A stretch of 64,000 nucleotides of DNA from Azorinus chamasolen (lineage: Eukaryota > Mollusca > Bivalvia > Cardiida > Solecurtidae), in contig OY755237.1 of NCBI GenBank assembly GCA_963576725.1, forward strand, positions 64,643,423 through 64,707,422, written 5' to 3'. The notes beneath the pieces are model-generated. The model searched no databases. It saw only the letters and a program-made list of their open reading frames with translations, and was not told the origin of the DNA. A program made the position numbers and the translations under genes. Below, piece after piece: positions 2,160-64,000 of this stretch (its first letter is position 1; each line of letters opens with the position of its first letter).

Positions 2160-2171
2160 TTTTGTTTCAGG

Positions 2172-19553: not shown

Positions 19554-19565
19554 TTTGGTTTCAGG

Positions 19566-22439: not shown

Positions 22440-23456
22440 GGACACGCTTTCCAGGCTGAGGTTGACCGTGGTTGCTTGATGGCCATATTTTAAAGTCGAC
22501 AACAGTTATTGCCATTACAGTTGCATTACCAACGACCATAATATAATGTCGACTGACAGTTACGATTGTAGTAACATTACCAACGACCATGGTATAATGT
22601 CGACGGTAGTTATGATTCCAGTGATAAAACAAAGGACCAAAGTAAAATGTGGTTGACTGCATTTACGGTACTAACAACTATAGTATAATGTCGACGACAT
22701 TTACGATTGTAGTAACAGTAACAAGGACCATAGTAAAATGTCGACGACAGTTATGACTATAGTTGCAGTAGCAGCACCAATAACATTATATCAGCGACCA
22801 TTATGACTGGATTTACCATACCGACGACCATACTCTATAATAATGTCGACTACAGCCGCAACGACTGCTGTTACAGCACCAACAACCAAAGCATAATGTC
22901 GACGACAGTTATGACTGCAGCTAAAGTACCAACGACCAGATCATAATGTCAACGACAGTTATGACTACATGTACAGTACCAACAACCAGCGTATAATGTC
23001 GACAACTGTATTTACAGTTGCATGGACCATAGGGCAATTTTGACGACAGTTACGACTGTAGTAACTAATCAACGATAATACGATGTCAATGTCTTCAGTC
23101 ACAGTACCAACGACAATATAATTGTGTCGACGATAATTACGACCGCAGTTACAGTACAATCGACCCTTATATAACGTCGACGATTGCAGTTATAGTACCA
23201 ACGACACTATTAAAATACCATCGACAGTTGCGACTGTGGTTACAGTTCCAAAGATCATACTATAATATTGACGAACGTTACGACTGCAGTTGTAGTACCA
23301 AAGACCATAATATAATTTCGCAATTAGACTACCTTCGACCATATTATACTGTGATCGACAATTACGTCTGCAGGTGCATTACCAAAGACCATAATATGAT
23401 TTCGACGACAGTAACCACGGTTACCGTTCAAATGACAAATGACCAATTTTACGATA
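22440..23456. repeat. Degenerate ~50-bp minisatellite in intron 2
   Basis: About 20 diverged units with ACCAACGACCATA, TATAATGTCGACGACAGTTA and CGACTGCAGTTACAGT. Continues at 23612-23690 and 24035-24225 after MITE insertions. Confidence 0.85.
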
Positions 23457-23610
23457 CAGTAAAACCCTCTAGACCGGACATTAAATTATACATAGTATTA
23501 TAGTGTACATACAGCTTAATGTAGTGTGAACATCATGCAGAAAGCTCCTCTAGCAGCAACCACCGAAAAGTTCTTCTCTAATAGAATTACTGTTTAGAGG
23601 GGTTTACAGT
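23457..23610. mobile_element. TA MITE (CAGTAAAACCCTCTAGACCG) in intron 2
   Basis: Inserted in the minisatellite; left end after TA, right end GTTTAGAGGGGTTTACAG. The core is partly deleted. Confidence 0.7.
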
Positions 23611-23690
23611 AACGCCTGCAATGATACTACCAACGACCATACTATAGCGTGTATTACGTCCGCAGGTATTGTACCAACGGTCATAATATA

Positions 23691-24034
23691 CAGTGAACCC
23701 TCGTTATACCGGCATTCGTTACAACGGCACCCTCGTTATACCGGCAGTATGTATTGAAACAAAATTACCGTTAACTATTTGAAACAGCCACTGAATAAAT
23801 AAGTGCAATGCCAATAGCACATGTGATTGCTTAATGCAGAACACAAGAAGTGCAAAAAGCTCCCCCAAGGAGCTTTTTGCATTTCTTGTGTTCTGCATTA
23901 AGCGATCACCTGTTGGTATAAGTTTAAAGCTGGCCATATGGTTCCTTTCATATTTAAACTCGATATAACGGCAACCTCGTTATACCAGCACAATGTCGGG
24001 AAACAAACACCTCCGTTGTAACGAGTGTTCATTG
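23691..24034. mobile_element. TA MITE (CAGTGAACCCTCGTTATACC) in intron 2
   Basis: TA target on both sides; right end GTTGTAACGAGTGTTCATTG. Long core GCAGAACACAAGAAGTGCAA with a CTCCCCCAAGGAG centre. It splits the minisatellite. Confidence 0.85.
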
Positions 24035-24225
24035 TATCATCGACGATAGTTACAACTGCAGCTAAAGTATCTACGACCATAGAAATTGTTTTGGCGACAG
24101 TTACGACTGTTTTGACGACAGTTACGACTGCATTAACTGCACCAACGACCACGGTATAATGTCGACTACAATAAGGATTGCAGTTAAAGTACAACGGCAT
24201 TACATTAAGACAATGTCAATGACAG
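24035..24225. repeat. Continuation of the intron 2 minisatellite
   Basis: Units such as TTTTGACGACAGTTACGACT (twice) and ACGGTATAATGTCGACTACA. Confidence 0.8.
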
Positions 24226-24446
24226 TCAGACGATGGACGATGACAACATTCAGTCTTTCTTTGATCACTAGGTAATTCTAGTCTTAAAACATTTAACGTC
24301 TTAGTGCAAAACTCAAAGTACAGAGTTTTAGAAAAAAAATGATTAGTGTGTCAGCTGATATGAATCTCGACGAAGAGACGACTTAACTTGTCCTACATGG
24401 TTCCAAAGTATTTGCAAAGTTTCTTATTTAATGTTTTCTTTTGTAG

Positions 24447-24689
24447 GAAAACAGTTTTTTCATCGAATGTGGGGCTCATGACGGCGAGTTTCTGTCATCC
24501 ACGCTATTCTTTGAGAAGACAAAACACTACAGAGGTGTACTTATAGAGGCCAATGTGCACTTGTTCAAAGCACTGTTGAAGAAACATCGAAAAGCATTCT
24601 CGATTAATGCTTGTCTGAGTACAAAACCATATCCTTCAGTTGTAAGTAACTTTTTACCTGTTGAAGATTCATCAGAACTACAGATAAAG
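24447..24689 (+). CDS. FkbM-type methyltransferase gene, exon 3 (SAM-binding half)
   Basis: Residues 128-208. The start ENSFFIECGAHDGE is the glycine-rich motif I of FkbM-like class I methyltransferases (SAM contact), and VLIEAN at about 158-163 is the acidic motif at the end of strand 2. FSINACLSTKPYP is typical of the eukaryotic branch. The acceptor is TTCTTTTGTAG and the donor is AAG before GTGCGT. Only one intact copy exists in the window; a decayed partial copy lies at 25270-25363. Confidence 0.9.
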
Positions 24690-24704
24690 GTGCGTACCCA
24701 CATA

Positions 24705-25114
24705 CAGTGTTCCCTCTCTACAACGGCACCCTTTGGGATACGAAGATTGTATGTGCTGTTCAGGGGGGGGGGGTTGTTATAGGGAGGGAAAAGCAAACAT
24801 AATTAGCTTGCTTGCAGATCCCCAGATATGGTGTATTTCGAGAACTAAAACCGTTATGCCTCCATCAAACCCTATGTTGTGACCATTCTTTAGAATCGTC
24901 ACAAAACATCAAACCCTATGTTGTGACCACTCTTTAGAATCGTCACAAAGTGACAATTCTAAAGAGTGGTCACAACATAGGGTTTGATGGAGGCATAGAG
25001 AAAATACGATGGAAAAAAGTTGTTTCTGGAGCCTTGTTGTTTCGGAAACAGTGACATGCGTTGTTGTAAGGAGGGAATCGTTATTGAGAGGGTCATTGTA
25101 GGGAGGGAGTACTG
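24705..25114. mobile_element. TA element (CAGTGTTCCCTCTCTACAAC) in intron 3
   Basis: CAGTGTTCCCTCTCTACAAC at the left and GTAGGGAGGGAGTACTG at the right, with TA on both sides. A second palindromic repeat (24857-24996) is nested inside. Confidence 0.7.
24857..24996. repeat. CCTATGTTGTGAC palindrome family with doubled left arm
   Basis: TGCCTCCATCAAACCCTATG to CATAGGGTTTGATGGAGGCA. The left arm is present 1.5 times. Hairpin stem of about 40 bp. Confidence 0.8.
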
Positions 25115-25129
25115 TAGTAAAATCACCAT

Positions 25130-25262
25130 TTCTCCACCAAACCCTATACTGTGATCACTCTTTAGAATCGAAGAGGCGATTCTAAAGAGTAGTCACAGTA
25201 TAGGGTTTGGTAGAAAAATAAAGGAGCTATTATTGAAAATGTTTAGATTTACGCATCTTATC
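25130..25262. repeat. CCTATGTTGTGAC palindrome family
   Basis: CCAAACCCTATACTGTGATC and the inverse around AATCGAAGAGGCGATT, then the same tail as 15785-15925. It directly precedes the exon 3 relic. Confidence 0.75.
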
Positions 25263-25269
25263 TGGAGCT

Positions 25270-25363
25270 CCATTCTCAGTTAATGCTTGTCTGAGCACAA
25301 AACAAAATCCTCCAGGTCATTGGCTTTCTCACTTAATCGTTTACCTGTTGAATATATACGAGG
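25270..25363 (+). pseudogene. Decayed partial copy of exon 3 in intron 3
   Basis: CATTCTCAGTTAATGCTTGT and the bases after it match the middle of exon 3 (24596-24640) with few changes. TTTACCTGTTGAA matches its later part, and the piece ends GAG before a GTAAGG donor. The reading frame reads FSVNACLSTK, then shifts before LPVE. No motif I half is seen. It is best explained as a relic of an exon duplication. Confidence 0.7.
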
Positions 25364-25592
25364 TAAGGCACCTACAGGAGCCGTCTCACCTGGGTTTATT
25401 CTGTTTGCAGTTTTGTTGCGAAATACATTTTCCATAAACTGTTTTACACAAACGAAATACAGTAAAGCCTCGCTAACACAACCACTCAAAAATTATAATT
25501 GATGATTTTTAGAAACAGGTAGTAGCTTAATACAGGACAGAAGTGTTCTTCATTACAGTTGCCCTACATTAAACAACCGTCTACGTTTAACA

Positions 25593-25775
25593 CAGAAAAC
25601 CCCTCTAATGCGACCACTTTATGAATCAGCAAAATGCCTTTAAAAGCAGGTAGTGGCTTAATGCAGGATGAAAGTTATGCAGAAAGTTCCTGTATAACTT
25701 TCTTCCTGCATTAAGCTATCACCTGCCTTTAACACCCAGAACTGTTTTTGATGGTGGCATTAGAGGGGGTTTACT
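25593..25775. mobile_element. TA MITE (AACCCCTCTAATGCGACCAC) in intron 3
   Basis: Right end GTGGCATTAGAGGGGGTTTA ending CTG. The core is shortened at the centre (AAAGTTCCTGTATAACTTTC). A half element of the same type precedes it (25458-25590). Confidence 0.75.
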
Positions 25776-25921
25776 GTTAATTAATTTGTCGCAGTAGCGA
25801 GACTTAATTAAATATATGCTGTTGTACCATGTGATGTGACATTTTTAAGCTGAGGTTTTTAACTTAATATGGCGGCCAATTTGAACGTAATAGACGTTTC
25901 TGTTATGTAATTTTGTATATA

Positions 25922-26070
25922 CAGTAGAACCTGTCCTAAACGACCATCTATTGACTGAACATAGAAGTCTTCAAAAGCAGGTGGTAGCTTAATGCATGGC
26001 AAAAGTAATGTAGAAAGCGAATATTTCTGCATTAGTTTAGACCTGCATGAATCTACAACCTGCCTAAATA
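25922..26070. mobile_element. TA MITE (CAGTAGAACCTGTCCTAAAC), right end lost, intron 3
   Basis: Left TIR after TA; core arms present but the centre deleted. Confidence 0.7.
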
Positions 26071-26239
26071 CCCGAAATTGACCCCAGTTTAATACTCACT
26101 TAAGGATTATTATACAGGTTTGTTTTGCTGTGTAGCTTGTCCAAAATTATAAATTACTTAGTTATAAAGCAATAATTGTAGAGAATACTTTTATATGTAA
26201 CTCACGCGATCAGGAAAAGAATGTTTATTGGTTTTACAG

Positions 26240-26596
26240 ATGACATTTAATCAGCTAGGGGGCATCGGACGCTTAGTGGAAGGAACTTTTGAAGAATCAT
26301 ATCGGCGCCACAACTTCAAACTGACGAAGGACTTGGTTCAACTACAATGTTTTCCGTTATACTCCATACTTTTAGCACTGGATCAACTGCACGTAGCGTT
26401 CATGGGCCTAGATGTTGAAGGCACAGAACTCGACATACTACGGACCATTCCTTGGGACAAAGTACACATCAGCAATATACTGTCCGAGTTTTCTCACGGG
26501 GTTGGTGGCATGCCTGCGCTGAAACAATATTTTGAAAGTAATGGGTACACAGTTATTAAAAGGCTAACAGAAGATCTCTTGGTTCAGTTGAAATAA
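26240..26596 (+). CDS. FkbM-type methyltransferase gene, exon 4 (C-terminal half, stop)
   Basis: Residues 209-326 and the TAA stop. It begins MTFNQLGGIGRL after the acceptor GGTTTTACAG. CFPLYSILLAL and the strongly conserved LDVEGTELDILRTIPW (about 265-280) are the late FkbM-domain motifs; EFSHG follows. With exons 1-3 this gives a full-length protein of the usual size for membrane-anchored metazoan FkbM proteins. A GT/GA microsatellite starts within 10 bases of the stop, so the 3' UTR must contain or avoid it. No convincing poly(A) signal is seen close by. Confidence 0.9.
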   Translation: MTFNQLGGIGRLVEGTFEESYRRHNFKLTKDLVQLQCFPLYSILLALDQLHVAFMGLDVEGTELDILRTIPWDKVHISNILSEFSHGVGGMPALKQYFESNGYTVIKRLTEDLLVQLK

Positions 26597-26603
26597 TCGC
26601 TAC

Positions 26604-26780
<177 letters not shown>

Positions 26781-27611
26781 AGGGGGGAGTGAAATTCAGA
26801 GAGACAGAAACAGAGAAACAGAGATACCGGTATAGGGACAGAGGCAGGGAGGCAGACATAACACTTTACTGGAATTAGTATCGAACGAATGAGCGTTAGT
26901 GTTTGCAGTTATAAAATGAAACCCATGGAAGTGTGGATAATTGATCTGTAAGTGACTTATAGTTCACCTGCCTACTCAGCTGTATACCAGCAATCAACGA
27001 CAGCACGTGCCAACGAATATCGTTAACAAATCCATATATGGCAAATCTACGACAGAATTCAAACAGTTTGTGTAGACAATTCCTACCAGGTCATGTGTTA
27101 ACTTTGAACTCTGTTATTTACATGAAGGATATAATGGATTTCAAATAGTTTAACTCAGACGATTTCTATGAAGAGATGAACCCAGAATCCTAATTTCAGT
27201 TAGTGATTATGAACACTCAGCAGTTGTTCCAACCGGTCGAAGGTAAAACTGAAGGTATATATTTCAACAAATCCAACTCTTGTCGAATTATGTCTGTTTA
27301 CACAATCATGCCGCTGTGAAACTCGCTTCCATAATATAACGCCTAATTATCGACGAGCGAAATATAGCCATCTCTTTGCTGTCAATTGCAAAACAGTGAT
27401 TTTGAAACCGAAACAATTTAGCCCATCTGAGCCAGCTATATTTCGAAGACACACCCTAAATGTCTGATAGCACCATGTCTCGATGGAGACTATCCAATTT
27501 CCGTACCCAGAGTTCCGTACACACGCATGAACAATACCCAGCAAATGTAATCTTCTGTAGGATAAGCGAAAAAACACCTGAATAACTTGACGTTTATCAA
27601 AATCTGAATAC
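26781..27611. other. Region downstream of the methyltransferase gene
   Basis: No recognised repeat or coding region. Likely contains the 3' UTR if transcription reads through the microsatellite, but no clear AATAAA site was found. Confidence 0.4.
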
Positions 27612-28020
27612 ATGTAGAACCCCTCTAATGCGACCACTTAATGAATGTACATAGGTGTCTTTATAAGCAGGTCGTGGGAGCTTTCTGCACTACTTTTGCC
27701 ATCCATTAAGCTACCACATGCCTCTACAACCCATACTTATCTACAACCCATATTCTCTTTGTCACCCTTCCTTTTGTTTGCCTTGCGTCTTTGTGCTTGT
27801 GATTTGTTCATGTGTGGAACGTTTGTCCCTGGTTCTTGTGTGTCTTTTGGTGTTTTCTGTGTTCATTTCGTGTGTGTGTGTGCGTTTGGTTGTGTGTGTG
27901 TGTCATGCTGTCTATCGGTGTTTTGGTGGTGGTTGTGTCTTGCATGTGGCTTTGCCTGCTTGACTTTACTACGTTTCCATTTATACTTATTTTAGGTGGT
28001 CGCATTAGAGAGGTTTTACA
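27612..28020. mobile_element. TA MITE split by the 250-bp insertion
   Basis: Left GTAGAACCCCTCTAATGCG and right GGTCGCATTAGAGAGGTTTT. Part of the left core arm is lost; the right arm carries 27741-27990. Confidence 0.8.
27741..27990. mobile_element. 250-bp insertion flanked by 8-bp repeat, inside a MITE
   Basis: ATACTTAT occurs at 27733-27740 and again at 27983-27990. Removing the stretch between restores the normal right half of a TA MITE (compare 51595-51648). The insert is T-rich, with GTGTGT runs and no clear TIR. Eight-base duplications fit hAT-type insertion. Confidence 0.7.
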
Positions 28021-28389
28021 TGTATTTAAAACACGCGTTTCGGTTTCGAAAATAAATAGTTACGAAACAATGTTTAAGTTGTAGCATTTATATAGCAGCT
28101 AAATTTCCTTACTAAGAAATTCCGTACTGTACTTCTCCAGCAGGTCTAATGTACAGTACAAGCCCTGCGGACTTTTTGTTTTCCACGGTCCATCGCAATT
28201 TTATCCAACGCGGACAAGGTTTTTTTGTCCATGCTAATATGCGGTTTTCCGCAGTCCGTCGCGGGTTGTGATGGGTCCGCAAAGGTGTCTCACCAGGGAC
28301 ATTCGTCGCCGGGTTCGATCGTTATCACCGCTGGTCGCGATGGTATCATCGTGAACTGCGATGTATGGTGTACGAAGTGGTTCATAACT

Positions 28390-28520
28390 TTCCAAAAGCG
28401 CATCATGCGGTTAACAAAGCGCATCGTGGGCTTTCTAAAGCGCCTCGCGTGCTTTACAAACTGCATCATGGGCTTTCTAAACCGCATCATGCGCTTTATA
28501 AACCGCAGCATGCGCTTTTC
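28390..28520. repeat. Six tandem ~21-bp palindromic units
   Basis: Units of the form AAAGCGCATCATGCGCTTT, each nearly its own inverse complement, in a CpG-rich patch (28150-28660). Confidence 0.75.
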
Positions 28521-28582
28521 GAGAGTTATGGACCGTCCGTACGCTACATGCCGAACCGCAACGCCAAACCACGGGCCTTTAA

Positions 28583-28608
28583 CCAATCAGAATTACCCTT
28601 ATATAAAA
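28583..28608 (+). promoter_or_regulatory. Candidate core promoter (CCAAT and TATATAAAA)
   Basis: CCAAT at 28583 and TATATAAAA at 28600, downstream of the CpG-rich patch with palindromic units. No gene start can be tied to it; it may belong to a solo LTR or other repeat. Confidence 0.25.
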
Positions 28609-28660
28609 AGGTATGGTATAATTAAAGAGCAACCGTGTGTTACTTGTGCGTTCTCGCGGC

Positions 28661-30214
28661 TTCGATATATTATTTCGATTTGCGTCGATAAATATATTTC
28701 TCAATGTATGTATTTGTATTATTCTGAACCTCAACTTACGGAACTATAATTGTTCTGATACTGATTTATGGCTTGGAATTATAAGTTTTACTATATTTAC
28801 CTAGATCTAGCCACAAAATAACATCCACACCTACTGTAACATTGTTAGAAACAAGTTCTGAAACTATCTATCAGTATGTTTTGCGGTGAGTATGGGTAAG
28901 GATTTATTTTGCTCTATAATCAATTCGACCAGTTGACTGTTCGTCTGATATATATGTAGCTATAATATAAGCTAGAAATACAGATATATTTATGTGTTGT
29001 TTTATTTCGAAAAACTATCAGTATTATCACCAGTTATGTATATAAAACGTTAACCCTTTCCCTCATAGTTCCGCATTTTCTCGTACTAGACACAGAGAAG
29101 ACACAGAGCAGAACCTGTATTCCATGAATACGCCTTTCTATCCCTATGCAAACAGAAGAGACCAAGGTCTGCCATTGCCAACAATTCCTGTTTCCATGTG
29201 CATTAAAATAATTTAATTAACATTCATTATTTCATATTTTCTTTATATATATTTATTCCATAAACACGACTTTCTGCGCCTGTGCAAACAGTGTATACCC
29301 AGATCATATTACTCAGCGTCTCATCAGGATTCAAGACTGCCAATAAATATTGCTTTAGTTCTATACGACCAAAACTGATATTGTTATCATAATCGGCGAG
29401 CGGACCTATGCGTTATTAAAACTGATCAAAGCAATACACCAAACTTGTAGAAATACCTCTTTGCACGCTAAGTAATTTTGCGTCTAAAATGATCATAAGA
29501 CGTTGCCTACTTCAGTTCTTCAATGACGTGCATTTGGATACTGAAGAAACTTCGTGTAACTTGGCGTTTAATATGGATCATATCTGTTAGCATGGTTTTG
29601 TAACTAGCATACGCTGAGTAAATGTAATAGTTTACTATTACGTGAACATATATAAATATTCTTCAGGCAAAGGGTAAATAGAACTATGACAACCTGGAAT
29701 GTTAGAATTGATCAACAAAGTGACTGGATCTGTTACATATACTTGCTGCCATCGAATTCTGGATCAGACTTCGGTTTGAATTCACAGCCACATGCATTCA
29801 AACAAACGCATGTGCACTATGTTGAAATGTTCTGTTGTGTACCAATATGGGTCAGTAAGGTTATATCCGGTTACATGTTTTTTGTCTGTGTATCTATCAT
29901 CCACATGGATATAACAAGTACATGTACGAGTACATAAATGTAATACGACTCGCTGCATCTGTATTGAATGTTTCATTTCAATATATCTACGTCAAACTAC
30001 CAAGATTGTTATCAGTGTCATAAGTATGGGCGGAAAACTTAGATTTATGGTGCGTTACTTTAACGACTTAATAATCAAACAAGAACTAGAATGTACACTG
30101 CTTTACGATACCCGAGTGAAATATTCAATAATTTACTTAATATAAAACAACTCTGGTTCTATTGCATTAAAGGTCCTTAATTCATATTGTAATACAATAG
30201 GTAAATTGAGAGAG
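28661..30214. other. Low-information region
   Basis: Contains only MITE remnants near 29050-29340 (GCAAACAG arms). No exon-like open stretch with good splice signals was noticed. Confidence 0.4.
29052..29230. mobile_element. TTAA MITE remnant (CCCTTTCCCTCATAG)
   Basis: GTTAACCCTTTCCCTCATAG followed by fragments of a core (GCAAACAGAAGAGACCAAGG); no right end. Confidence 0.5.
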
Positions 30215-30222
30215 AGTCACAC

Positions 30223-30263
<41 letters not shown>

Positions 30264-30470
30264 GAGACCGACAGACAGACAGAGACAGAGAGAGACAGAT
30301 AGACAGACAGAGACAGACAGACACACACATGGACAGACAAACAGACAGACACACACAGAGACACAGATAAGACACACAGAGGCACACACACAGAGGCAAA
30401 CAGAGAGAGGGAGATACACAGAGAGACAAAGACATACAGAGAGACATACAGACAGACAAACGACAAATAA
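30215..30470. repeat. Microsatellite (GA)n and (ACAG)n
   Basis: GA run 30223-30260, then GACAGACAGA-type and ACACAGAG repeats. Confidence 0.95.
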
Positions 30471-30482
30471 ACAGATATGTTC

Positions 30483-30790
30483 ATCGAATAGACAAACGGT
30501 GTAGATCCAAATTATAAGGCTCCGGTGTGAACCTCATGATCTGGATCTACACTGTGTTAAATATTAACAGACGAACTAATTCTATGGGTGATAAGTGCTG
30601 TTAGTGTGTTGAACTATATATTTAGGATTTGTTCGTCAAACAGACAAACAGTGTATATTCAAACCATAAGGTTTCATTGTGAACCTCATGATCTGGATAT
30701 ACACTGTAAACAATGTAAATAGACGACATCATTTTAGTGTTGTTAGTGTGTTTGTACTATATTTAGGATATGTGTGCTTGAAATAATTTA
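30483..30790. repeat. Direct duplication (~155 bp) of a hairpin-containing unit
   Basis: CAAACGGTGTAGATCCAAATT to ATCTGGATCTACACTG, followed by GTTAGTGTGTTGAACTATAT, then the same order again from about 30645. Confidence 0.75.
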
Positions 30791-30894
30791 CAATGAAAGT
30801 TTGTAAAACAGATTTGTCTTGTTTTAACTTCACGATTTATTTTTTTTTAAAAAAGATAAGAAAAAATAACCAAAAACAGATTGGCATTTTTCAA

Positions 30895-30990
30895 GTGGCA
30901 TTTATTCCAGTGGCATATTTTCACTTAACGGTGGCAATTTTCCAAGTGGCATATTTTCCAGTGGCATTTTTTATAATTAGATCAGTATTT
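30895..30990. repeat. Short tandem array, GTGGCATATTTTCCA units
   Basis: About five units of 17-20 bases containing GTGGCAT followed by T-rich sequence. Confidence 0.7.
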
Positions 30991-32262
30991 AATTTTTTAA
31001 TTCTCATTTCATTTTAATAAGATCTAGATATTAAGATATGCAGTCTCATGGCGTTCATTTGTGTGTTGTAAAATGTCTTTCTGGATACTATACAGTACCG
31101 TAACAGATCTAGTAAAAGTATTTTAGAATAGATCTAGATCATATCAATCTAAACTATCTTTAGAACTAGAATTCACAATAATCTAACTTTTTAAATAGAT
31201 CTAAGTCGTTGGGGTTTAAGCTTAGCCATAGATCTAATAGTCAAAACATAGTTATCTTCTATTTTTCGGAAAGCTGTTTAACATTACTGTTTCAGTAGAA
31301 TCATTCCTGTTACGTAATAATTCATAACTTTGTTGATAAGACAGTGTTTGATAGATGACAGTTGTGTGATCACTGACCCTTGTCCCCTGCTGAGAAATTA
31401 GGGGATTTACTGACCATCTGTCACCTTTGATCGTTACTATTTTCCTAAGTCTAGTTAGTAACTTAGCAGTATACATGTATTTAGGCTGAGTAAGTAATGT
31501 AATAATATAGTCTCCAACTGTCTAACACAATTCATTTTCAGTATTCCAAAACAAATAGTTTGTATAATATGTAGTATAGTGAATAAATGCTGTGCAAAGC
31601 ATAACATTTATATGAGTTCTGTTCTGTTCAGTACAGATGCATTTAACAAATATATCTTATCACATACACATTACCTGATCAGTTTTAATACTTCAATGCA
31701 CACCTCAAAACTAAATAACCAATGAGAAACCAGGACATTGCATACAGAACTGTGTAGTGTTTTAGTGTGCGGATTGTGATAGTGTGTATGTGTGTATATA
31801 TAGGATACAGTTTGTTTTATTGGACGCTATATAGGATCTGGTAAGCCATATATATATATATTCTTTCTATAATTGGCAGTGTCTGCACAGTGCAAGCCAT
31901 TTATTTAACTATTATTGCATGCTGTTTATTTGGCAGTTAACTATTCTTACATACTATTTAGTTAACTATTTTGTATTCTTGAAACTGTATTGGATACTTT
32001 CTAAATTATATTAGTTTCATTTGCAATGTGCAGAACAGTTAATTGAAGGAATTAGAAGTTTAAGAGTATATTTTTTGTCTTTTTATTACCATGTTAACAG
32101 TGTGATTAGTAATATTTGTAAGCTTGACCCACAGTCATGTAGTTAAGGGCACAGGCGTTGGGCTTATGAAATATGTCTAAAGTAAGTTAAAATGTCCCTA
32201 AATTGACGTTTTGTAACATTTGGGGCCGAAAAGTAAAGCCTGGGGCGTTTTGAGACAAGGCT
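30991..32262. other. AT-rich region without recognised features
   Basis: Frequent AGATCTAG motifs between 31020 and 31240; otherwise nothing recognised before the inverted-repeat element at 32263. Confidence 0.4.
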
Positions 32263-34021
32263 GAAATTTCGGGGGTACGGACAAAACCCCACTAGGACGT
32301 ACCCCACTAGGACGTAACCCCATAGGACAATACCCCATAGGACACAAACCCACTGCCAAATGTGTCAAGGCGGACAAAACCCCACATGTTAACATAATTG
32401 GGTTATAAATCAACTTTTAGATAATTTGAAGAAGAAACACTCAATCAGAATATAAATTCAAAGCAAGATCTTTACATTTTCAAATTTAAAGTTACAATCT
32501 GCAAAAAAAATAGAAGTTAAAGCATATTTAAAATTAGGTCAAAATTATGAATAAATGAAGAATGCATTTATAGTTAAATGAGCTTTTTGTTTACTTTTAA
32601 TTTTACTTTTAATTTAATTGTTGGTTTTAGCGGTATCAATGTTCAATAGTCATAATTATATATTAAATTCAGTTAAAGAGGATTACACTAAACTACTGAT
32701 TGAATGTGTGATGTGTTTTTAGATGTATCAAAGTTAATTATACATACAATTAATTAAACAGGATTATACATGGCATTGTACTAAAAACTTTGATACAGTA
32801 AATTCTTTTATTAATGATTTCACACCTAATTATCTTTAAAGTATCTAAATTCGCATCTTTCTTCTTTAATGACAAATACTTTACTCACTGTGATAGTCAT
32901 TAAAATCTTGATTGGTTGGATAGTCTTTAAATTTCACACCTTTCTTATTTAATCATGAAAGTTTGTTTTCACATTGACTTTAGTCTTGTAGCCAATAAAT
33001 TAGCAAAGGTGATTAGGAGGGAATAAATATATGTAATATAATAATTGCATTATTTGTTATCAATCCGTTTTTGATGATCCCAGCATCAAAGTATGCATAC
33101 AGTCAAACTGATGCAAACATGGTTGAGCCAGATCATAAAATTGTGAAAATGATTTTGGTCTACCCTGTTTGTAAGTTAAGAAAAGAAATCAGTTAATAGT
33201 GGTTATATTATAATAGTTTATATGCAATATGTGCTAATATTACATTATCCATATCTATTGAATCTATATTAAGTGTACCAATGCAAACATGGTTGAGCCA
33301 GATCATAAAATTGTGAAAATGATTTGGGTCTACCCTGTTTGTAAGTTAAGAAAAGGAATTAGTTAATTGTGGTTATATTATAATAGTTTATATGCAATAT
33401 GTGCTAATATTACATTATCCATATCTACTGAATCTATATTAAGTGTACCAATGCAAACATGGTTGAGCCAGATCATAAAATTGTGAAAATGATTTGGGTC
33501 TACCCTGTTTGTAAGTTAAGAAAAGGAACTAGTTAATTGTGGTTATACCATGTATGCCTTTTTTGTATAGAATGTGGTTCACTTAATAAATATTCATTAA
33601 TTGTCAGTGAGCAAATAGGTTAGAACCTGATCAGATGGCTTTGTTTTAGAATCTGTATGATCTGGATCTATTCTGTTTGTAAAAAGATATAAAAAGATCC
33701 TCCTTGTGATAATACAACTTATGCTTTTAGTGAAAATCAGGTTATTACCAAATTACCATATGCATAACAACATAGTTATTTATTACTTGTATTCTCATTG
33801 AAATTAAATATTTATACTTATTTCTTTTCTCATATGTTTTATTCTCCCTTTCTATTGCTTTGAAGTGCCATTTGCATATATAAATCCTTAATCAAATACA
33901 TAATTATGATTAAAATGGGGTTTTGTCCATGTGGGTATTGTCCTACTGGGGTTTGGTCCTAGTGGGGAATTGTCCTATGGGGTTACGTCCTAGTGGGGTT
34001 TTGCCCTACACCCGAAATTTC
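32263..34021. mobile_element. 1.76-kb inverted-repeat element with repeated TAGGAC ends
   Basis: The left end (GAAATTTCGGGGGTACGGAC then several blocks like CCCCACTAGGACGTA) is mirrored at the right end (33915-34021) as the inverse complement with a different number and order of blocks. The interior is AT-rich with no transposase, and holds three 170-bp tandem units (33111-33560) and a hairpin core at 33605-33680. Confidence 0.8.
33111..33560. repeat. 170-bp tandem repeat, about 2.7 copies
   Basis: GCAAACATGGTTGAGCCAGA recurs at 33113, 33283 and 33453. Each unit holds a degenerate palindrome (GCAAACATGG to CTACCCTGTTTGT) that resembles the hairpin cores of the TTAA MITEs. Confidence 0.85.
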
Positions 34022-34264
34022 GTATATTCTATATAAGAGAAAGGCAAACTCTCGGGCCATCCGATCCACGGGTGCTCCGCTTCAACTGCAATTATTTTCG
34101 ACCGGAAGGGAATTTTCCCACAAAACAAAGATTATATAGAAAGAAAAATGTTTTATCTACACGCTGGTACCAAATACCCCATACTTTGTCTCCGTTTTAG
34201 CGAGTACGAGGGGCAAATACCTTCAGAAAACAGTGTTTTAATATAGTTTCTGTCGTTTAGGTGT

Positions 34265-35790
34265 TTGGTACTTCAAGCAAAGTCTCTTAAAAGGAAACAC
34301 AATAGACTTAGACTTTTGAAATGTGCAAATGCTGTTACCATTTTGCCAAACAAAACAGTTGACATTACTTGTTTTTGTGAAAAGTCATTACCTTTTAGAG
34401 ATACATATTCCATAATTCACCTTTGTGATGAAAACTCAGATTTAAATTTGGATATTTGTCCTACTGTTATATCTTATGGCATGAGGGCTTTGCCAATTGC
34501 CGTGTCTGTTTCAAATTTGTCGTCCCAGACCATCACTTTGCATGCAAGGAGTACAATAGCTCAACTTCAACCTGTCTCTACTGAAAATAAAGTATTGAGT
34601 TCAGGACAGTCAACCAATGCAACTGATAAGAAATCATTTTTAGATGAAATTGAGATTGATAGGGCAAATTTAACAGAAAGTCAAGTTCATTCAGTCATAC
34701 ATGCTCTTTCTTCTTTTGAAGATATATTTTCCAAAGGTGATGAAGATGTAGGATTTACAAACTTAGTGAAACATAGAATTGAACTCTTTGACACAATTCC
34801 TTTAAAACGAAGATATAGAAGTATTCCTCCTTCAATGTTAGATGAAGTTTGAGAACATTTACAGAAACTTTTGGCTTGTGGAATTATTCGAAAATCTCAT
34901 AGTTCGTGGGCATCTAATGTTGTTTTGGTACGAAAGAAAACTGGCGAACTTAGACTTTGTGTTGATTTTAGAGAGTTGAATAATAAAACCAAGAAAGATA
35001 GCTATGCTTTGCCCAGAATAGATGATATTTTGAATACTCTTGCAGGAAATAATTACTTCTCAGTCTTAGATATGAAAAGTGGGTACCACCAGGTTGAACT
35101 AGAAGATTCTCATAAGGAAAGAAGTGCTTTTACTGTAGGTCCACTTGGATTTTATGAATATGAACGCCTCCCATTTGGTTTGTGCTCAGCACCAGCAACT
35201 TTTCAAAGGCTTATGGAAGAATGTTTAGGTGAATACAATTCGAAAATCTGTGTAATTTACTTAGATGACATCATTATATTTGGTAGCACATATGAAGAAC
35301 ATTTGGAAATACTCAATTTAGTTTTGCAGCGACTTCGTGAATGTAACCTGAAATTAGCTCCAAAAAAGTGTAGATTTTTCAAAAGTAAGGTTAAATACGT
35401 TGGTCATGTTGTTTCTTCTGATGGTATAAAAACTGATCCGTCAAAAGTTAAAAATTGACCTGTTCCGAAAAATGCTGATGAATTAAGATCATTTCTTGGA
35501 TTTGCAGGGTACTATAGGAAATATATAAACAACTATGCTGTTATGGCCCAACCTCTAAACAAACTTCTCCCCCCTACTTCAGTTTCTAAAAAGTGTAAGA
35601 AACGCAAACCAGCTTCTGTTCAGGACTTCAACTGGGATAAGGAGCAAGAAAAAGCATTCAGTTGTATTAAAAATGCCTTGGTTTCAGCACCTATTCTTGG
35701 TTTTGCCGATTTTTCAAAACCCTTTGAACCCCATACAGACGCGTCTGCTGTTGGATTAGGAGCTATATTGTATCAATAACAGAATGGGGT
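34265..35790 (+). pseudogene. Ty3/gypsy retrotransposon fragment (pre-RT linker, RT, start of RNase H)
   Basis: One reading frame with three stops. The first part (to a TGA at 34850) is the linker between protease and RT with KHRIELFDTIPLKRRYR. The RT follows (SSWASNVVLVRKK, LDMKSGYHQVE, RLPFGLCSAPATFQRLM, YLDDIIIFG), then a TGA at 35456 where a Trp codon is usual (NWPVP). It resumes at RSFLGFAGYYRKYI and ends within the RNase H start (HTDASAVGLGAILYQ, TAA at 35777). Gag, protease, integrase and LTRs are not found. A dead fragment. Confidence 0.9.
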
Positions 35791-44385: not shown

Positions 44386-44620
44386 TTAACCCTTCTTCCG
44401 CTGAGTTTTCATATATAAATGCCCTCTATGAATATCTATCATCTCAACGTTTATATTGGTAATAAATACAGGAATAATTTCCGCAGGACGAATGCCAATT
44501 CATGTTTGATAGATGAAACCAGTGCACACCCTGATCATACAGCCTCTGAGAGATATCTGATCTGGGTCTGCACTGTTTTTAAATTGGGTCAATATATGCT
44601 ACTAGCATGAAAAGGGTTAA
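44386..44620. mobile_element. TTAA MITE (CCCTTCTTCCGC)
   Basis: TTAACCCTTCTTCCGCTGAG at the left and GAAAAGGGTTAA at the right, with a damaged core around 44520-44575. Confidence 0.75.
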
Positions 44621-45896: not shown

Positions 45897-46148
45897 TTAA
45901 CCCTTCTCTTGCTGAATTTTAAAATACATTTCTCCTTCTTTACCCATGCCCTGTTGTATAATTACATATTTCTTCACTGTGTACAGGTATTTCGCTGTGT
46001 GCAATCACTGCTGTGGAGTGCACTGGTTGCACACTCAACTTGTAAATAGTGCGGACCCTGATGAGACAGCTCCTGCAGGAGCTGTCTCATCTGGGTCTGC
46101 ACTATTTACTGGTAGGTATATTGACGTGAGTAGCAAGCGAAGGGTTAA
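45897..46148. mobile_element. TTAA MITE, CCCTTCGCTTGCT family, reversed
   Basis: TTAA at 45897 and 46145; 68-bp core 46042-46109 centred on CTCCTGCAGGAG, one arm with CCCT and the other with CCCA before GATGAG. Confidence 0.9.
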
Positions 46149-47509: not shown

Positions 47510-47732
47510 TTAACCCTTACAACGCTGACTTTTCAAATGGAATACATTTTGTATTCCAAAATTCAAATAGGTCAAGCTTATGGTGAATATTTAGGTAAGT
47601 TTTCTAAAGAAAAGTGTAACATGACAAACAGTGCAGACCCTGATGAGAGGGCTCTCCTAGGAGCCCTCTCATCTGGGTCTACACTGTTTGCAAAGGACAT
47701 TAGTGACTCGGGTCCCGCACTGTAAGGGTTAA
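47510..47732. mobile_element. TTAA MITE (CCCTTACA) with CTCTCCTAGGAG core
   Basis: TTAA at 47510 and 47729, ends CCCTTACA and TGTAAGGG. The 66-bp core 47625-47690 is centred on CTCCTAGGAG. A relative lies at 57300-57449. Confidence 0.85.
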
Positions 47733-48215: not shown

Positions 48216-48370
48216 TCCATAAGCCAGGTGGTAGCTTAATGCAGCTCAAAAGTAATGCAGAACATTGCTATAGGAGCCTTCTGCAGTACATTAGCCCTGC
48301 ATTAAGCAACCGCCTGCTTTTTAAGAATCCTAAGTTCAATAAATGAATGGCGGATTAGGACAGGTTCTGC
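48216..48370. mobile_element. TA MITE remnant leading into a tandem array of its own end
   Basis: Core CAGGTGGTAGCTTAATGCAG and the inverse; right end GGCGGATTAGGACAGGTTCT. The end is then repeated in 48340-48660. Confidence 0.75.
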
Positions 48371-48660
48371 CGTACAAAATTAGACCTAATTTTAATGGTC
48401 GCTTAGGACAGGTTTCAATGTACAAAATTAGACCTAATTTCAATGGTCGCTTAGGACAGGGTTTAATGTACAAAATTAGACCTAATTTTAATGGTCGCTT
48501 AGGACAGGTTTTACTGTACAAAATTAGATCTAATTTTAATGGTCGCTTAGGACAGGTTTTAATGTACAAAATTAGACCTAATTTTAATGGTCGCTTAGGT
48601 CAGGTTTCAATGCACAAAATTAGATCTAATTTTAATGGTCGCTTAGGACAGGTTTTAATG
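48340..48660. repeat. Tandem array (57-59 bp) built from a TA-MITE end
   Basis: About six units of GGTCGCTTAGGACAGGTTTT followed by AATGTACAAAATTAGACCTA; the first part is the right TIR of the adjacent MITE. Confidence 0.85.
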
Positions 48661-48689
48661 TAATTTCCTTATGCTTGTTTGTTTGTTTG

Positions 48690-48850
48690 TTTGTATAAGG
48701 GGTTTAGGTTACTTTAACAGTCGTTCGGTCATGTCACGACGTCCAGCTACTTACAGGTCGAGGAAGACTCAAGGGTTTATTCCGAACACGGAGTAATTTG
48801 ACTTGTTCCGTGAAGAACACCCGTGCGGAACCACTGACTTTCGACAAGCC
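48690..48850 (-). mobile_element. SINE 3' part, reverse orientation
   Basis: On the minus strand it contains CTGGCTTGTCGAAAGTCAG, a GTCTTCCTCGACC block, AGCTGGACGTCGTGACATGA and a tail before repeated AAAC, matching the body and tail of the 46679 SINE. The tRNA-like head is missing. Confidence 0.7.
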
Positions 48851-48934: not shown

Positions 48935-49185
48935 TTAACCCTTTCCCTGATGAATATTTATGTAGGAAATAATGACGTCATGATTATTAATAAGATATTT
49001 TTTTTTATAATAGCATATGAACACAGGACATTTCGGCTCTGGCAGAAGCTGTAGAATCAGATCTATATTACACCATAAGCAAACAGAGCAGACCCTGATC
49101 AGACGGCTCCTATAGGAGCCGTCTGATCTAGGTCTACTCTGTTTGCAGATGCGTCAAAATTCGCTTACATAAGGGAAAGGGTTAA
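48935..49185. mobile_element. TTAA MITE (CCCTTTCCCT), intact
   Basis: TTAACCCTTTCCCT and AGGGAAAGGGTTAA are clean ends (TTAA 48935-48938 and 49182-49185). The 68-bp core is 49079-49146, centred on CTCCTATAGGAG. This is the best example of the family. Confidence 0.92.
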
Positions 49186-49845: not shown

Positions 49846-50034
49846 ATTTTCAAACAGTTTGGGTCCTTTTTAGAAGCCTACTTATTCGGCGTCCAATCTG
49901 GATCCAAACTGTTTGCAAAGGTAATCATGTATCCGTCGGTAACAGACTAAAGGTTAACAATAAATAGTAAACGTGTATGTCCATAGGAATATATTCATTG
50001 ACATCAGAGGACATGACTTGAACACACACCACTA

Positions 50035-51445: not shown

Positions 51446-51648
51446 CAGTAGAACCCCTCTAATGCGACCAATTAATTAATAAACATGGGTGTCTTATAAG
51501 CAGATGGTTGCTTAATGCAGGACAAAAGTAATGCAGAAAGCTCCTCTAGGAGCTTTCTGCATTAGTTTTGTCCTGCATTAAACTACCACCTGCCTCTACC
51601 ACCTAGAATTATACCTCTTTTAGGTGGTCGCCTTATATGGGTTTTACT
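51446..51648. mobile_element. TA MITE (CAGTAGAACCCCTCTAATGC)
   Basis: Core CTCCTCTAGGAG centre; left arm GGTTGC, right arm GTAG form. The right TIR has drifted (CCTTATATGGGTTTTACTAA). Confidence 0.85.
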
Positions 51649-53972: not shown

Positions 53973-54177
53973 CAGTAAAACCCCGCTAATGCGACCATTT
54001 AATAAACAGCCAATGGCGTCGTTTAAATCAGGTGGTTGCTTAATGCAGGACGAAAGTTATGCAGAAAGCTCCTATAGGAGCTTTCTGCATAACTTTCATC
54101 CTGCATTAAGCTACCACCTGCATCTGCCACCCAGAATTATGCCCATTTTTGGTGGTCGCATTAGAGGGGTTTTACTG
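53973..54177. mobile_element. TA MITE (CAGTAAAACCCCGCTAATGC), intact
   Basis: TA on both sides. A 92-bp spacer-less core (54029-54120) centred on CTCCTATAGGAG, with one T/A arm difference (GGTTGC against the GGTAGC form). Best preserved TA member. Confidence 0.92.
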
Positions 54178-54572: not shown

Positions 54573-54800
54573 ATTTACTCCTTTCCCTGATATAACGCTT
54601 TTTCACGCCTTTGCAAACAGAGTAGAACCAGATCACACAGCTCCTATAGGAGGCGTCTGATCTGGGTCTACTCTGATTGCTTATGACGATATAATATACC
54701 CCACTATACAGTTCTTATCAATATCGAAATATCGTGTGTACATATGTCATTATAAAACATCCAGCTAATAAATATTCATGAAGTACATGTAAATGGTTAT
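54573..54800. mobile_element. TTAA-type MITE (CCTTTCCCT), decayed ends
   Basis: Left CTCCTTTCCCTGATATAACG; core at about 54614-54681 with centre CTCCTATAGGAG; right TAAATATTCATGAAG and GTAAATGG. Confidence 0.7.
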
Positions 54801-60350: not shown

Positions 60351-61124
60351 CACTCTCTTACACCCGGTTACATTACATACCTCTGTAGTTGGCTCAGAAA
60401 GTAGTCCGAAATGAAACTAACTCCCGTACAAAACAGAAAGTAAATTGCTTGTATGTTTCTTTGACAGTTTAACAGAAGAAAAGCAAAAGGCTGGGATTTC
60501 CCATAAGTTATGTGCCCTTTGGGGTTATAGCAGAATGCCAGTGCCTTATAAGAAGTTCGGAATCTATAATTTGTAGAAACTGTTTTTAAAATATTTAGCA
60601 GACATCATTCCATTTTACTTGTTTACATTTGCGCAATACTCGAAGCGTAAAGCGGCATGAAAATATGTCATCAAATTTTCTCTGAAATTAAACTGTATTT
60701 CCAGTTTTATGATAAAATAAAAAGCTATTTATTCTTGATTCAGGCTATTTTGATATAAACTATCGACTAAGATAACCATAAAACACAAACTAATAGTTTT
60801 GCCAAGATTCTTGGCATGAGCCCATCGCAGAGGTGTATGTGAGAGTAACGAATGACAACTCTGCAGGGAGATTGCATTCTCTTTACACATATTCAACAAG
60901 TTAATACCGTAATTGTATACCGTATTGTCCTGATTTTTACGCTCAGTAAAGAGTCACGCAGATCAGGTCCAGACGGTCAATCTACGAAACATTCTAAATT
61001 TATGTCGGGATATAATCAGGTAAATCATCCGTGCGTGAATTCGTAACACCAGTAAAATAAATAACCAATCAATGCAGAACCAGACTGAACAACAGAACAA
61101 CAACTGTCTCCGAAGTGGCACCCA
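60351..61124. other. Region between the LINE and copy 3
   Basis: No recognised repeat or coding region. Confidence 0.4.
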
Positions 61125-61273
61125 CTTGTAAAATGCCATGTTATTTTCGATTTTAAATACTCACAGTATGGAGCCTACCGCTAGTAAATTACCGCTACAC
61201 TATTTCTACAAACTCTTCCAGTCACTACTGTCTTATATTGTATCTATTTCACCCATACCTGATATGAACTTGT

Positions 61274-61415
61274 ACAGTAAAACCTCTCTAAACCGGACGT
61301 TAATATTAGTATCAAAACAGGTCTTTCAGACAGGTGGCAGCTTAATGCAGGCTGAATGTCATGCAGAAAGCTCCCAAAGGACTTTCACCCTGCATTAAGC
61401 ATCCACCTAATAGAT
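61274..61415. mobile_element. TA MITE, copy 3 counterpart, right end deleted
   Basis: Left TIR and core as at 1126; the right quarter is replaced by unrelated sequence after CATCCACCT. Confidence 0.7.
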
Positions 61416-61914
61416 ATATTTTATTAGGAAAGTGTGACATGTTACAGAGACTTTGTATTAGACCGCAGTGAGATTCCCTGACTAATTATATATTTATGTT
61501 GATTACTGATACTCGTCAATTATCCCTAAAAATAACTTATTAACCCTTTACTCCATGAACACGCTCCAGTAGGAGCCATCTAATCAGGGTCTGCTCTGTT
61601 TACTTTTGGAATGATATATATCTGATTGAAAAATGTTGTTTTCATAACCAAACAGTTTGTCTTCATATTCTGCTATAAAATACATCTTATTTATTATTAC
61701 TTACCTGATAACTGATGGAGTAAATGGACAAATAAAGAAAAACCCTGTAATGTTATTTTCTCATGGTTCTGTAACCTTGACCTTTATGTTACCGAAAGTG
61801 CCTTACGGTAACCCAGCTAGACTTAATTCAACAACGTTCAGGATCAGCCACCACATTAATCATGGTATGCATTGTCACTATTTAGAAAAAAGTTTTTGTT
61901 CACCCTTTCTACAT

Positions 61915-62164
61915 TTAACCCTTCGCTTACTATTCGCGTCAATATACCTACCTGTAAATAGTGCAGGACCAGATGAGACAGCTCCTGCAGGAGCTGTCTC
62001 ATCAGGGCCTGCACTTTTTACAAGTTGATTGTGCAACCAATGCACTCCACGGCAGTGATTGGACAGCGATATACGGGTACACAGTGAAGATATATGTAAT
62101 TATACAACAGGGCATGGGTAAAGAAGGAGAACTGTATTTTAAAATTCAGCAAGAGAAGTGTTAA
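61915..62164. mobile_element. TTAA MITE, CCCTTCGCTTGCT family (copy 3, separate insertion)
   Basis: Same family as those at 1911 and 19305 but at a different TTAA about 90 bases further from exon 1. Both TTAA ends are intact. Confidence 0.9.
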
Positions 62165-62268
62165 AACTGTATATCGTGGTCAGATGTAACATTGAAAGCA
62201 ACAGCTGACCAGTATCTCTTCATTTCACAAATGCCCGGATATCGTTTCAAACTTAATTTGGTTTCAGG

Positions 62269-62493
62269 ATGTCTCGCAGATGGGTTGGAAATGTTCTTGT
62301 CCTGGTACTTATGTGCGCACTCATAGCACTATTGTATCAGTATGGCGCAGGTCTTCTGACAGAGGAACGACCGACTAAACAAGCAACACAAGGTTTCATC
62401 AGAAACAAGTCAATACATAAAACAGAAATGAGCAAAGTACCCAATGTGCCAATTGAAGTCTTTGACGAACTGATGGAACTTAACGACAGGCAG
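62269..62493 (+). CDS. FkbM-type methyltransferase gene, exon 1, copy 3
   Basis: These are 75 open codons starting MSRRWVGNVLVLVLMCALIA and ending LNDRQ before GTTAGT, with the same acceptor and single G before the ATG as the other copies. Changes against copy 1 include N3R, T20A, N50H, Q70E and K74R. Its remaining exons would lie beyond position 64000, so whether this copy is a complete gene cannot be judged. Confidence 0.85.
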
Positions 62494-62547
62494 GTTAGTA
62501 GCCTAACTTTGAATATGAACGATTTGTTTAACATCGCAGGTTTAAAA

Positions 62548-63006
62548 CAAGAGCTGTCCGCAGACAGCGCGTTCCACTTTCTTTAGTGCTGGATAGTGTA
62601 GTGGAAGTCTAAGTCAGAAAGGGCAGATAACTATAGCAAAATTAATTTTAGGGTTACCTGCCCTTGTGGAATGGGCCCCCCCTGGTAAAAGTTAACATGC
62701 ATACCAAATTTGAACCAAATATGTTGGACAGTTTCTGAGACATGGACCTTAACATAAAACTTAACCAACAATGAAAAATCTAAGTCGTAAAAGGGGCATA
62801 ACTATGGCAAAATTAATTTTAGGGTTACCTACCTTTGTGAAATGGGGTGTCCTTGTGATAGTAAACATACATACCAAATATGAACCAAATATCTTTGATG
62901 GTTTTTGAGAAATAGACCTTAACAAAAAGATTCACCAACGCCGATGCCGACGCCGACGCCGACGAGAGGGTCATGACAATAGCTCCACGTTTTGAAAAAG
63001 TGGAGG
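62548..63006. mobile_element. 459-bp insertion in intron 1 of copy 3
   Basis: Absent at the matching site of copies 1 and 2 and flanked by TAAAA on both sides (62543-62547, 63007-63011). It holds a repeated GGGCATAACTATGGCAAAAT-type block and GCCGACGCCGACGCC near the right end, like common dispersed mollusc repeats. Class not assigned. Confidence 0.65.
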
Positions 63007-63082
63007 TAAAATAATGATTAACTCATAAATAGCAAATGTAAGACACAGAATTCTTGACCACCACACCTCCCTGAGTAACCGG

Positions 63083-63972
63083 ATAGATTTCACGGCTCAT
63101 AGCGCCATGGCTTGGTTCAGAGATTTCACGGCCCATAGAGCCACGGTTTGGTTCATAGATTTAACGGCCCATAGAGCCACGGTTTGGTTCATATATTTCA
63201 CGGCCCATAGAGCCACGGTTTGGGTAATAGATTTCACGGCCCATAGAGCCACGGTTTGGTTCATAGATTTCACGGCCCATAGAGCCACGGCTTGGTTCAT
63301 AGATTTCACGGCCCATAGAGCCACGGGTTGGTTCATAAATTTCACGGCTCATAGCGCCACGGCTTGGTTCATAGATTTCACGGCCCATAGATCCACGGCT
63401 TGGTTCATAGATTTCACGGCCCATAAAGCCACGGCTTAGTTCATAGATTTCACGGCCCATAGAGCCACGGTTTGGTTCATAGATTTCACGGCCCATAGAG
63501 CCACGGTTTGGTTCATAGATTTCACGGCCCATAGAGCCACAGTTTGGTTCATAGATTTCACGGCCCATAGAGCCACGGCTTGGTTCAGAGATGTCACGGC
63601 CCATAGAGCCACGGTTCGGTTAATATATTTCACGGCCCATAGAGCCACGGTTTGGTTCATAGATTTCACGGCCCATAGAGCCACGGCTTGGTTCATAGAT
63701 TTCACGGCCCATTGAGCCACGGTTTGGTTCATAGGTTTCACGGCCCAAAGAGCCACGGCTTGGTTCATAGATTTCACGGCACATAGAGCCACGGTTCGGT
63801 TAATAGATTTCACGGCCTATGGAGCCACGGTTTGGTTCATAGATTTCACGGCTCATAGCGCCACGGCTTGGTTCATTGATTTCACGGCCCAAAGAGCCAC
63901 GGCTTGGTTCATAGATTTCACGGCCCATAGAGCCACGGTTTGGTTCATAGATTTAACAATCCATAAAGCCAT
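63083..63972. repeat. 36-bp tandem repeat, about 25 copies
   Basis: Units of GGTTCATAGATTTCACGGCC followed by CATAGAGCCACGGTTT. Long frames on both strands are open because 36 is a multiple of three. Copies 1 and 2 carry only two degenerate units at the matching place (about 2520-2575, 19913-19970). Confidence 0.95.
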
Positions 63973-64000
63973 GCGTTAATAAACAAGCAAGCAAACAAAC

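Follow-up and report, generated by a model that had tools for sequence, protein, structure and literature searches.

REPs are prokaryotic units of 20-40 bp (PMC3733652), and in E. coli they require conserved mismatches in the middle of the stem, activity being eliminated once a regular stem is restored (PMC8266576; both according to the available text of these papers). The palindromic cores that we describe here, from a stretch of 64,000 bases analysed at its full length (the window), are like REPs and the TnpA-REP (RAYT) system in being short, many-copy palindromes with a conserved stem mismatch. Unlike these cores, REPs are processed as single strands by HUH enzymes in the descriptions available to us, which also hold a second, perfectly palindromic REP group, and unlike REPs the hairpin of the window lies inside a MITE of 223-252 bp with TTAA-flanked ends and is not known to be the substrate of an enzyme. 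Searching both strands over the 12 bases 5' of the hairpin gave GTAG in 0 of 23 cores, and an identification as REPs was dropped on account of this absence. The E. coli REP is the closest proven parallel that we know of, and the MITE hairpin may function like it as regards the mismatch.

Three other systems come close in part. In animal piggyBac elements CCCTT is the most conserved motif of the ends and TTAA is the target, and the window elements are like piggyBac-type MITEs in both their TTAA target site and their CCCTT ends; the available text of PMC10813416, which sets MITEs aside, makes no mention of a co-varying hairpin core that lies close to one end and has a mismatch of fixed polarity. 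Made1 and other palindromic MITEs are likewise near-perfect palindromic non-autonomous DNA elements, as far as the accessible part of PMC1784062 describes them, but there the Made1 palindrome consists of the terminal repeats, whereas the window cores form a separate internal palindrome and, unlike Made1, have a mismatch common to families with different ends. Finally, the arms change together as in stems maintained by template switching (PMC8794818, in its available text), although template switching that acts evenly along the stem would, in the simulation described below, also erase a fixed mismatch. Literature searches by DNA word, peptide word and topic gave no description of the cores among the matches listed, each seen in part.

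The window has a G+C content of 36.6%, and our impression is that it resembles an invertebrate genome dense in short interspersed elements. No tRNA was found in its 64,000 bases, and nothing in the whole window, cores included, matched Rfam at gathering scores. All evidence presented here comes from this single 64 kb window, in which copies and subfamilies are few and related. Subfamily consensuses were drawn up for core types F1 (around 49079), F2 (20739), F3 (47624) and F8 (GGATCC type); within each arm, W denotes the disputed A/T site (arm position 18) and X the site seven bases further out (position 11). The TTAA-flanked elements that carry the argument are as follows.

48935 to 49185, plus strand: complete TTAA-flanked MITE, TTAACCCTTTCCCT ... 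AGGGAAAGGGTTAA, holding the core 49079-49146
49079 to 49146, plus strand: palindromic core of type F1, arms of 34 + 34 bases, spacer absent
49096, plus strand: W site of the left arm, T (the T arm, on the long-flank side)
49129, plus strand: W site of the right arm, T on the plus strand and A when the arm is read inward
45897 to 46148, plus strand: MITE with F2 core 46042-46109 (T/A), ends CCCTTCTCTTGCT and AGCAAGCGAAGGG
47510 to 47732, plus strand: MITE with F3 core 47624-47691 (T/A), ends CCCTTACA and TGTAAGGG
20700 to 20949, minus strand: MITE with F2 core 20739-20806 (T/A), a near copy of the MITE at 3389
44386 to 44620, plus strand: MITE with diverged core 44515-44580 (T/A), left end CCCTTCTTCCGCTG

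The first of these has TTAA at 48935 and a second TTAA ending at 49185, with TTAACCCTTTCCCT at one end and inverted at the other, and the elements around cores 46042, 47624, 20739 and 44515 follow the same plan with other ends. A TTAA target-site duplication at both ends was found for these five (49079, 47624, 46042, 20739 and 44515) of the 15 cores inspected, the rest mostly having one end missed by the exact pattern or an ambiguous assignment. The five two-ended MITEs are 223-252 bp long, and CCCTT starts the terminal repeats at both ends of each. Because TTAA and CCCTT match the reported animal piggyBac signature, we read the elements as non-autonomous piggyBac-type MITEs, and those with F1, F2 and F3 cores putatively form an old group of this kind. 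By eye, a single element (48935-49185) seems to have a subterminal repeat whose spacing differs between its ends, a possible point of comparison with piggyBac. Among 13 ORF translations, a subset of the window's ORFs, none gave a Pfam match to a transposase.

Scanning the window with a weight matrix in which W was masked, at a cut-off of 9.5 bits, yielded 82 arms of at least 9.5 bits, against two in total (9.7 and 11.8) from ten shuffled windows, and these arms formed 32 convergent pairs. At W, 25 pairs are T/A, five A/A (10243, 30492, the tandem neighbour 30644, the weak 47857, and 54613), one C/A (41650), one G/T (41976) and none T/T; with five duplicates removed, T/A accounts for 21 of 27. 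The initial annotation had named nine places, and a check coordinate by coordinate found all of them to be palindromic cores in the states it gave: T/A at 14646, 19344, 20739, 46042, 47624, 49079 and 61954, with real A/A exceptions in cores 10243 and 54613. Further cores and related elements bear on what follows.

14646 to 14713, minus strand: F1 core, T/A
1950 to 2017, minus strand: F2 core, T/A
19344 to 19411, minus strand: F2 core, T/A, segmental duplicate of 1950
61954 to 62021, minus strand: F2 core, T/A
10243 to 10310, plus strand: F2 core, exception A/A, with A in the left-flank arm and X still C/A
54613 to 54680, minus strand (strand by eye from flanks): F1 core, exception A/A, W and X both matched
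49850 to 49916, plus strand: diverged GGATCC-type core (F8), T/A
20071 to 20137, plus strand: diverged GGATCC-type core (F8), T/A
15173 to 15360, minus strand: TTAA-flanked element with the A arm alone (scored 15194-15225)

Not all copies are independent, as 1950 and 19344 share a segmental duplication and so do 3389 and 20739, while 61954 belongs to a third related segment and could be either a separate insertion or a further duplicate. The 54613 core looks as though one of its arms had been overwritten with a copy of the other. Of the mismatches first described, W alone is near constant; X is variable (T/T at 54613 and others, C/C at 46042 and 61954, C/T at 49079, and C/A in three of the five cores of the 20739 type), so that GTAGACCCA cannot stand for the second arm in general. 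Elements with a T or an A arm only include 15173-15360, in which both TTAA ends are present, and 1466-1497 with its duplicates 18861 and 61572. In the core at 16427-16523 the left arm is duplicated, the inner copy having T at X and T at W, which is unusual for either F1 arm.

To place W among the other stem positions we used alignment A1, comprising 23 of the 32 pairs and omitting duplicates (3389, 19344, 20532, 21854, 30644), inner-deleted cores (4498, 13328, 14079) and the weak-scoring 47857. In A1, as in the alignment A2 introduced below, T/A pairs were turned T arm first, whereas for A/A and mutated pairs the orientation was judged by eye from the flanks; the orientation of core 30492 could not be set. 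The A1 stem is paired in 80.8% of 777 cells, counting G-T as paired, as compared with 31-42% when one arm is slid by 1-3 columns, and double changes that keep pairing fill 64 cells, where shuffling gives 25.5 such cells and sliding 16-25. Of the 23 cores, 20 lack pairing at W (columns 18 and 54) and 12 at X, against a background without W and X of 152 of 731 cells (20.8%); the median stem pair is not Watson-Crick in 22%. The binomial tail for the excess at W, 2e-11, overstates certainty because related copies are treated as independent, and the p-values of the whole analysis assume independent copies and are hence too small. On the strand shown, the 20 unpaired W cells comprise 18 T-T, one T-C and one C-T; that they are T-T rather than A-A follows by construction from turning the T arm first, which is not true of the lack of pairing itself. 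At the other scored positions A-A or T-T cells number 15 of 666. Arm mismatches thus concentrate at W across the 23 aligned cores, as had been anticipated, and the fixed T/A mismatch is confirmed as real and wider than first noted. Among the few control palindromes, family F5 (six pairs, overlapping and duplicated ones included) has no position mismatched in more than three, and the two pairs of family F6, to which one further single palindrome can be added, have no mismatch position in common.

Polarity was taken solely from flank tests, the alignments having T first by construction. We compared the 60 bases outside each of 71 arms of at least 18 bits, duplicates not collapsed, and found 106 pairs of flanks scoring higher than the 99.9% null: 58 A-A, 35 T-T, 7 A-T, 5 C-T and 1 A-G. 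Of the seven A-T pairs, six include the left arm of 10243, an A/A exception, and the remaining one links 15543 to 33611; the C-T and A-G pairs come from two cores with a mutated T or A, on the expected side. In the two-ended elements the long flank borders the T arm and the short flank the A arm, and no core inverted between its flanks was seen in the comparison of 71 arms. The mismatch had been described as occurring in either orientation, which is correct for the window strand and not for the element, where the T arm is always on one side. Since polarity relative to the flanks is fixed, the mismatch was already present in the common ancestor, and descent from one ancestral core is supported, in agreement with the single master sequence suggested at the outset.

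Our main reading, which we place at slightly less than even odds (about 0.48), is that the core is a hairpin part of the TTAA MITEs, inherited from one T/A core, whose mismatch has been retained because it matters. Within the window, the copies can be shown to descend from a core whose T arm already faced the long flank and whose A arm faced the short one, to have upheld stem pairing since then by paired changes in both arms, and to have left W mismatched. Persistence may have been selected, a hairpin with built-in direction presumably working better in active source copies. The core would, if only for a time, be active as folded DNA, either a hairpin or a cruciform, in which the T-T interruption (A-A on the other strand) would provide a direction impossible for a perfect palindrome, and a transposase or a host factor is a candidate reader of the signal. 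As many copies are decayed, selection could act only on active source copies, none of which is in view, and since one-armed elements such as 15173-15360 exist, the hairpin may be dispensable for transposition; their arm loss may also have followed insertion. If a structural constraint with a protected mismatch holds, MITEs are more than two ends around filler, and the multiplication of elements consisting of ends only becomes a testable question.

The main rival is pure descent with a rarely corrected mispair, which we regard as a serious possibility of clearly lower probability: the mismatch would be ancestral, the arms would sometimes have been homogenised by template switching or repair, and W would have happened to escape, perhaps because T-T and A-A mispairs are corrected less often than G-T and A-C. 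Fixed polarity agrees with such a history, and template switching has been proposed to create and maintain paired stems (PMC8794818, in the part available). Site X, which is G-T on one strand in F1, speaks for it as well, being paired in 11 of 23 copies (4 C-G, 7 T-A) versus 3 of 23 for W. The same contrast counts for retention too: of the copies discordant between the two sites, nine are paired at X only and one shows the reverse (p = 0.02). Other A/T sites that changed in both arms point the other way. The consensuses of the four subfamilies, built from 46 of the 82 arms (hand-picked clear members, positions 1-28, undecided letters skipped; three left and two right arms for F3, three left and five right for F8), differ in both arms alike at ten positions (2, 6, 9, 10, 12, 15, 22, 26, 27 and 28), which flank W on either side, and one-sided differences occur at positions 1 and 11 (X) only. 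In these subfamilies 20 of 22 left arms carry T at W, and all 24 right arms carry A. Position 9, which is also an A/T exchange between families, is mismatched in 3 of 23 cores against 20 of 23 for W (Fisher 8e-7), so that the same kind of mispair was resolved there and not at W.

Simulations also weigh against descent alone. We modelled mutation with uniform arm-to-arm homogenisation in four families over 200,000 runs, with mean tract lengths of 1, 3, 6 and 12, two tree shapes and priors that fix the range of rates, and accepted runs in which 8-12 sites were coordinated and no more than four mismatches were loose; W was kept in all four families in 0 of the 7,036 accepted simulations. Because equal rates along the stem are assumed, a site-specific reluctance to correct the mispair remains compatible with this outcome. 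Descent alone may not suffice to explain the fixed W. It had been suggested that the A/T pair might turn out to be present only in a few copies by descent; we find it in most copies, by descent, and it outlasts the turnover of neighbouring base pairs. Within the window, the cores combine common descent with polarity, upkeep by paired changes and the persistence of one mispair. Were descent the only cause, they would still be a clean natural record of the concerted evolution of palindrome arms and of mispairs that resist correction.

A second group of MITEs has cores of its own (F4). These elements are flanked by TA, have CAGTAAAACC ends and core arms of about 46 bases, and from the ends CAGTRAAACC together with the TA target we take them to be of pogo/Tigger type.

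11544 to 11748, plus strand: pogo-like MITE, TA-flanked, CAGTAAAACCCC...GGGGTTTTACTG, with F4 core 11599-11692, T/A at its own site
53973 to 54177, plus strand: pogo-like MITE with F4 core 54028-54121, T/A
51500 to 51593, plus strand: F4 core, T/A
23819 to 23913, plus strand: F4-related core, T/C at the same site, with a CAGTGAACCCTCG end to its left

The TA target and pogo-like ends are complete in two (11544-11748 and 53973-54177) of seven elements inspected, the other five missing one or both ends under the pattern used. Alignment A2 holds 16 cores, namely 15 of 21 pairs plus 11893, whose partner arm was read by eye, and leaves out the duplicates 17729, 18588, 19013, 20239 and 61330 and the overlap artefact 11641. 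Pairing holds in 87.5% of its 703 cells, and double changes fill 31 cells, compared with 11.4 after shuffling and 5-14 after sliding. Counting from the outer end, the tenth site departs from Watson-Crick pairing in 13 of 16 cores, 11 of these being T/A, compared with 15% elsewhere; the exceptions include one T/T and two A/A among the 16. The position of this site does not correspond to that of W. A second A/T site, column 34, reads AU in eight cores and UA in five, with two unpaired and one gap. In the 60-base flank test 108 A-T pairs stood against 124 A-A or T-T pairs, a comparison blurred by flanks that reach into the shared ends; with 26-base flanks, 19 of 33 similar pairs had the same letter and 14 were discordant. 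Each of the 14 includes either the left arm of an A/A copy (25977, 334, or 17729, which duplicates 334) or the single arm 46294, and for this reason we read the polarity as fixed here too, with less certainty. The arrangement is no isolated accident, since the pogo-like group carries a fixed T/A mismatch of its own, and both this repetition and the two-sided change at column 34 tell against pure descent.

A broader reading, which we consider rather doubtful, is that two cut-and-paste MITE classes would use a folded-DNA hairpin in which one T-T/A-A mispair serves as a polarity code for a recognising factor. If true, it would be the eukaryotic counterpart of the bacterial REP mismatch code and possibly a missing part of how MITEs attain high copy number.

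Somewhat less probable again is that the arms are double-stranded sites for one protein whose two subunits contact W differently, the hairpin being unnecessary. By eye, the F4 arms look like the inner stretch of the terminal repeats of the same elements (GGTGGTCGCATTAG at the ends, GGTGGTWGCTTAATG in the arms), and G-T and A-C cells are about equal in number, hence giving no sign of RNA folding; both points suit such a protein site. The paired changes, however, span most of the arm (positions 2 to 28), which is long for one contact, and in the TTAA group inspection by eye revealed no likeness between arm and end.

That the mismatch shields the element from the instability of a perfect palindrome appears improbable. 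Palindromes are known as breakage hotspots in the sources available to us, and a need to avoid a perfect hairpin, for stability or nicking, had been among the first proposals. Cores 20739 and 10243 differ at W alone. Folded as single-stranded DNA, the two strands of the former, with the mismatch, are predicted to reach -31.1 and -30.9 kcal/mol and those of the latter, without it, -33.7 and -34.6 kcal/mol, a predicted cost of about 3 kcal/mol, which is small. The A/A copies persist, as do near-perfect palindromes of other families in the same window, at 24907-24989 (39 of 40 arm positions matching) and 21967-22035 (32 of 33). For avoidance, moreover, any mismatch anywhere would do, and neither the polarity nor the identity of the base at one site would matter. 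The hairpin-avoidance proposal is accordingly set aside, and the orientation signal, proposed alongside it, is favoured in a broadened form in which the mismatch is kept while the remaining stem co-evolves.

Selection at the RNA level, with the core as a microRNA-like or other RNA hairpin, is least credible of all: palindromic MITEs can turn into microRNA genes (Made1, in the available text of PMC1784062), but Rfam gave no match at gathering scores, and G-T against A-C cells number 35 against 39 and 26 against 20, so that neither strand has an excess of G-U (p 0.73 and 0.46); this test is weak, since the majority of single changes are probably decay that followed insertion.

Several observations extend beyond the mismatch. 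A hammerhead ribozyme, considered on account of CTGATGAG in the left arm of some families, was rejected, as Rfam gave no match and no GAAA strand was seen by eye. Of three protein-level searches with spurious translations of the core, two found nothing and the third matched five ORFs (P0001-P0005) in five other contigs, with a peptide like NSADPDETAPAGAVSSGSALF and 91% identity over 98% of the 46-residue query in the best case, which shows that related cores occur in other assemblies; W is silent in the matched frame by our own reading, and the five ORFs are therefore uninformative on the mismatch. Exact-pattern scans found no core in viral contigs and one match in prokaryote genomes, in Olsenella, which is taken as chance.

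A centre consisting of GCTCCTA and then its reverse complement, exact or altered at one base, is common to 49079-49146, 54028-54121 and 12456-12527, members of three families, namely the CCCTT/TTAA type, the pogo-like type and a third type with TTGAAACC arms. We estimate that seven shared centre bases in three families are unlikely to have arisen by chance, and the centre is possibly a shared or exchanged hairpin tip. The palindrome family CATCAAACCCTATGTTGTGACCACTC (24863-24989, 25135-25212 and 15785-15867) has some nearly perfect arms and, in the few pairs seen, no obvious fixed mismatch.

Segmental duplications at 1-3700, 17400-21000 and 61100-62550, up to 100% identical over 283 bases, hold several MITEs and two similar ORFs (2118-2435 and 62257-62583). 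Elsewhere, the ORF at 26201-26593 has a weak match to an FkbM methyltransferase (PF05050), under the curated cut-off, and retrotransposon remains at 34247-35776 include a reverse transcriptase at 34853-35455 (PF00078, E 1e-37), with a borderline match to a dUTPase profile in the ORF upstream of it. Tandem arrays lie at 8976-9416, 12789-13248, 48298-48729 and 62939-63994, with units of 49, 51, 48 and 36 bases, respectively.
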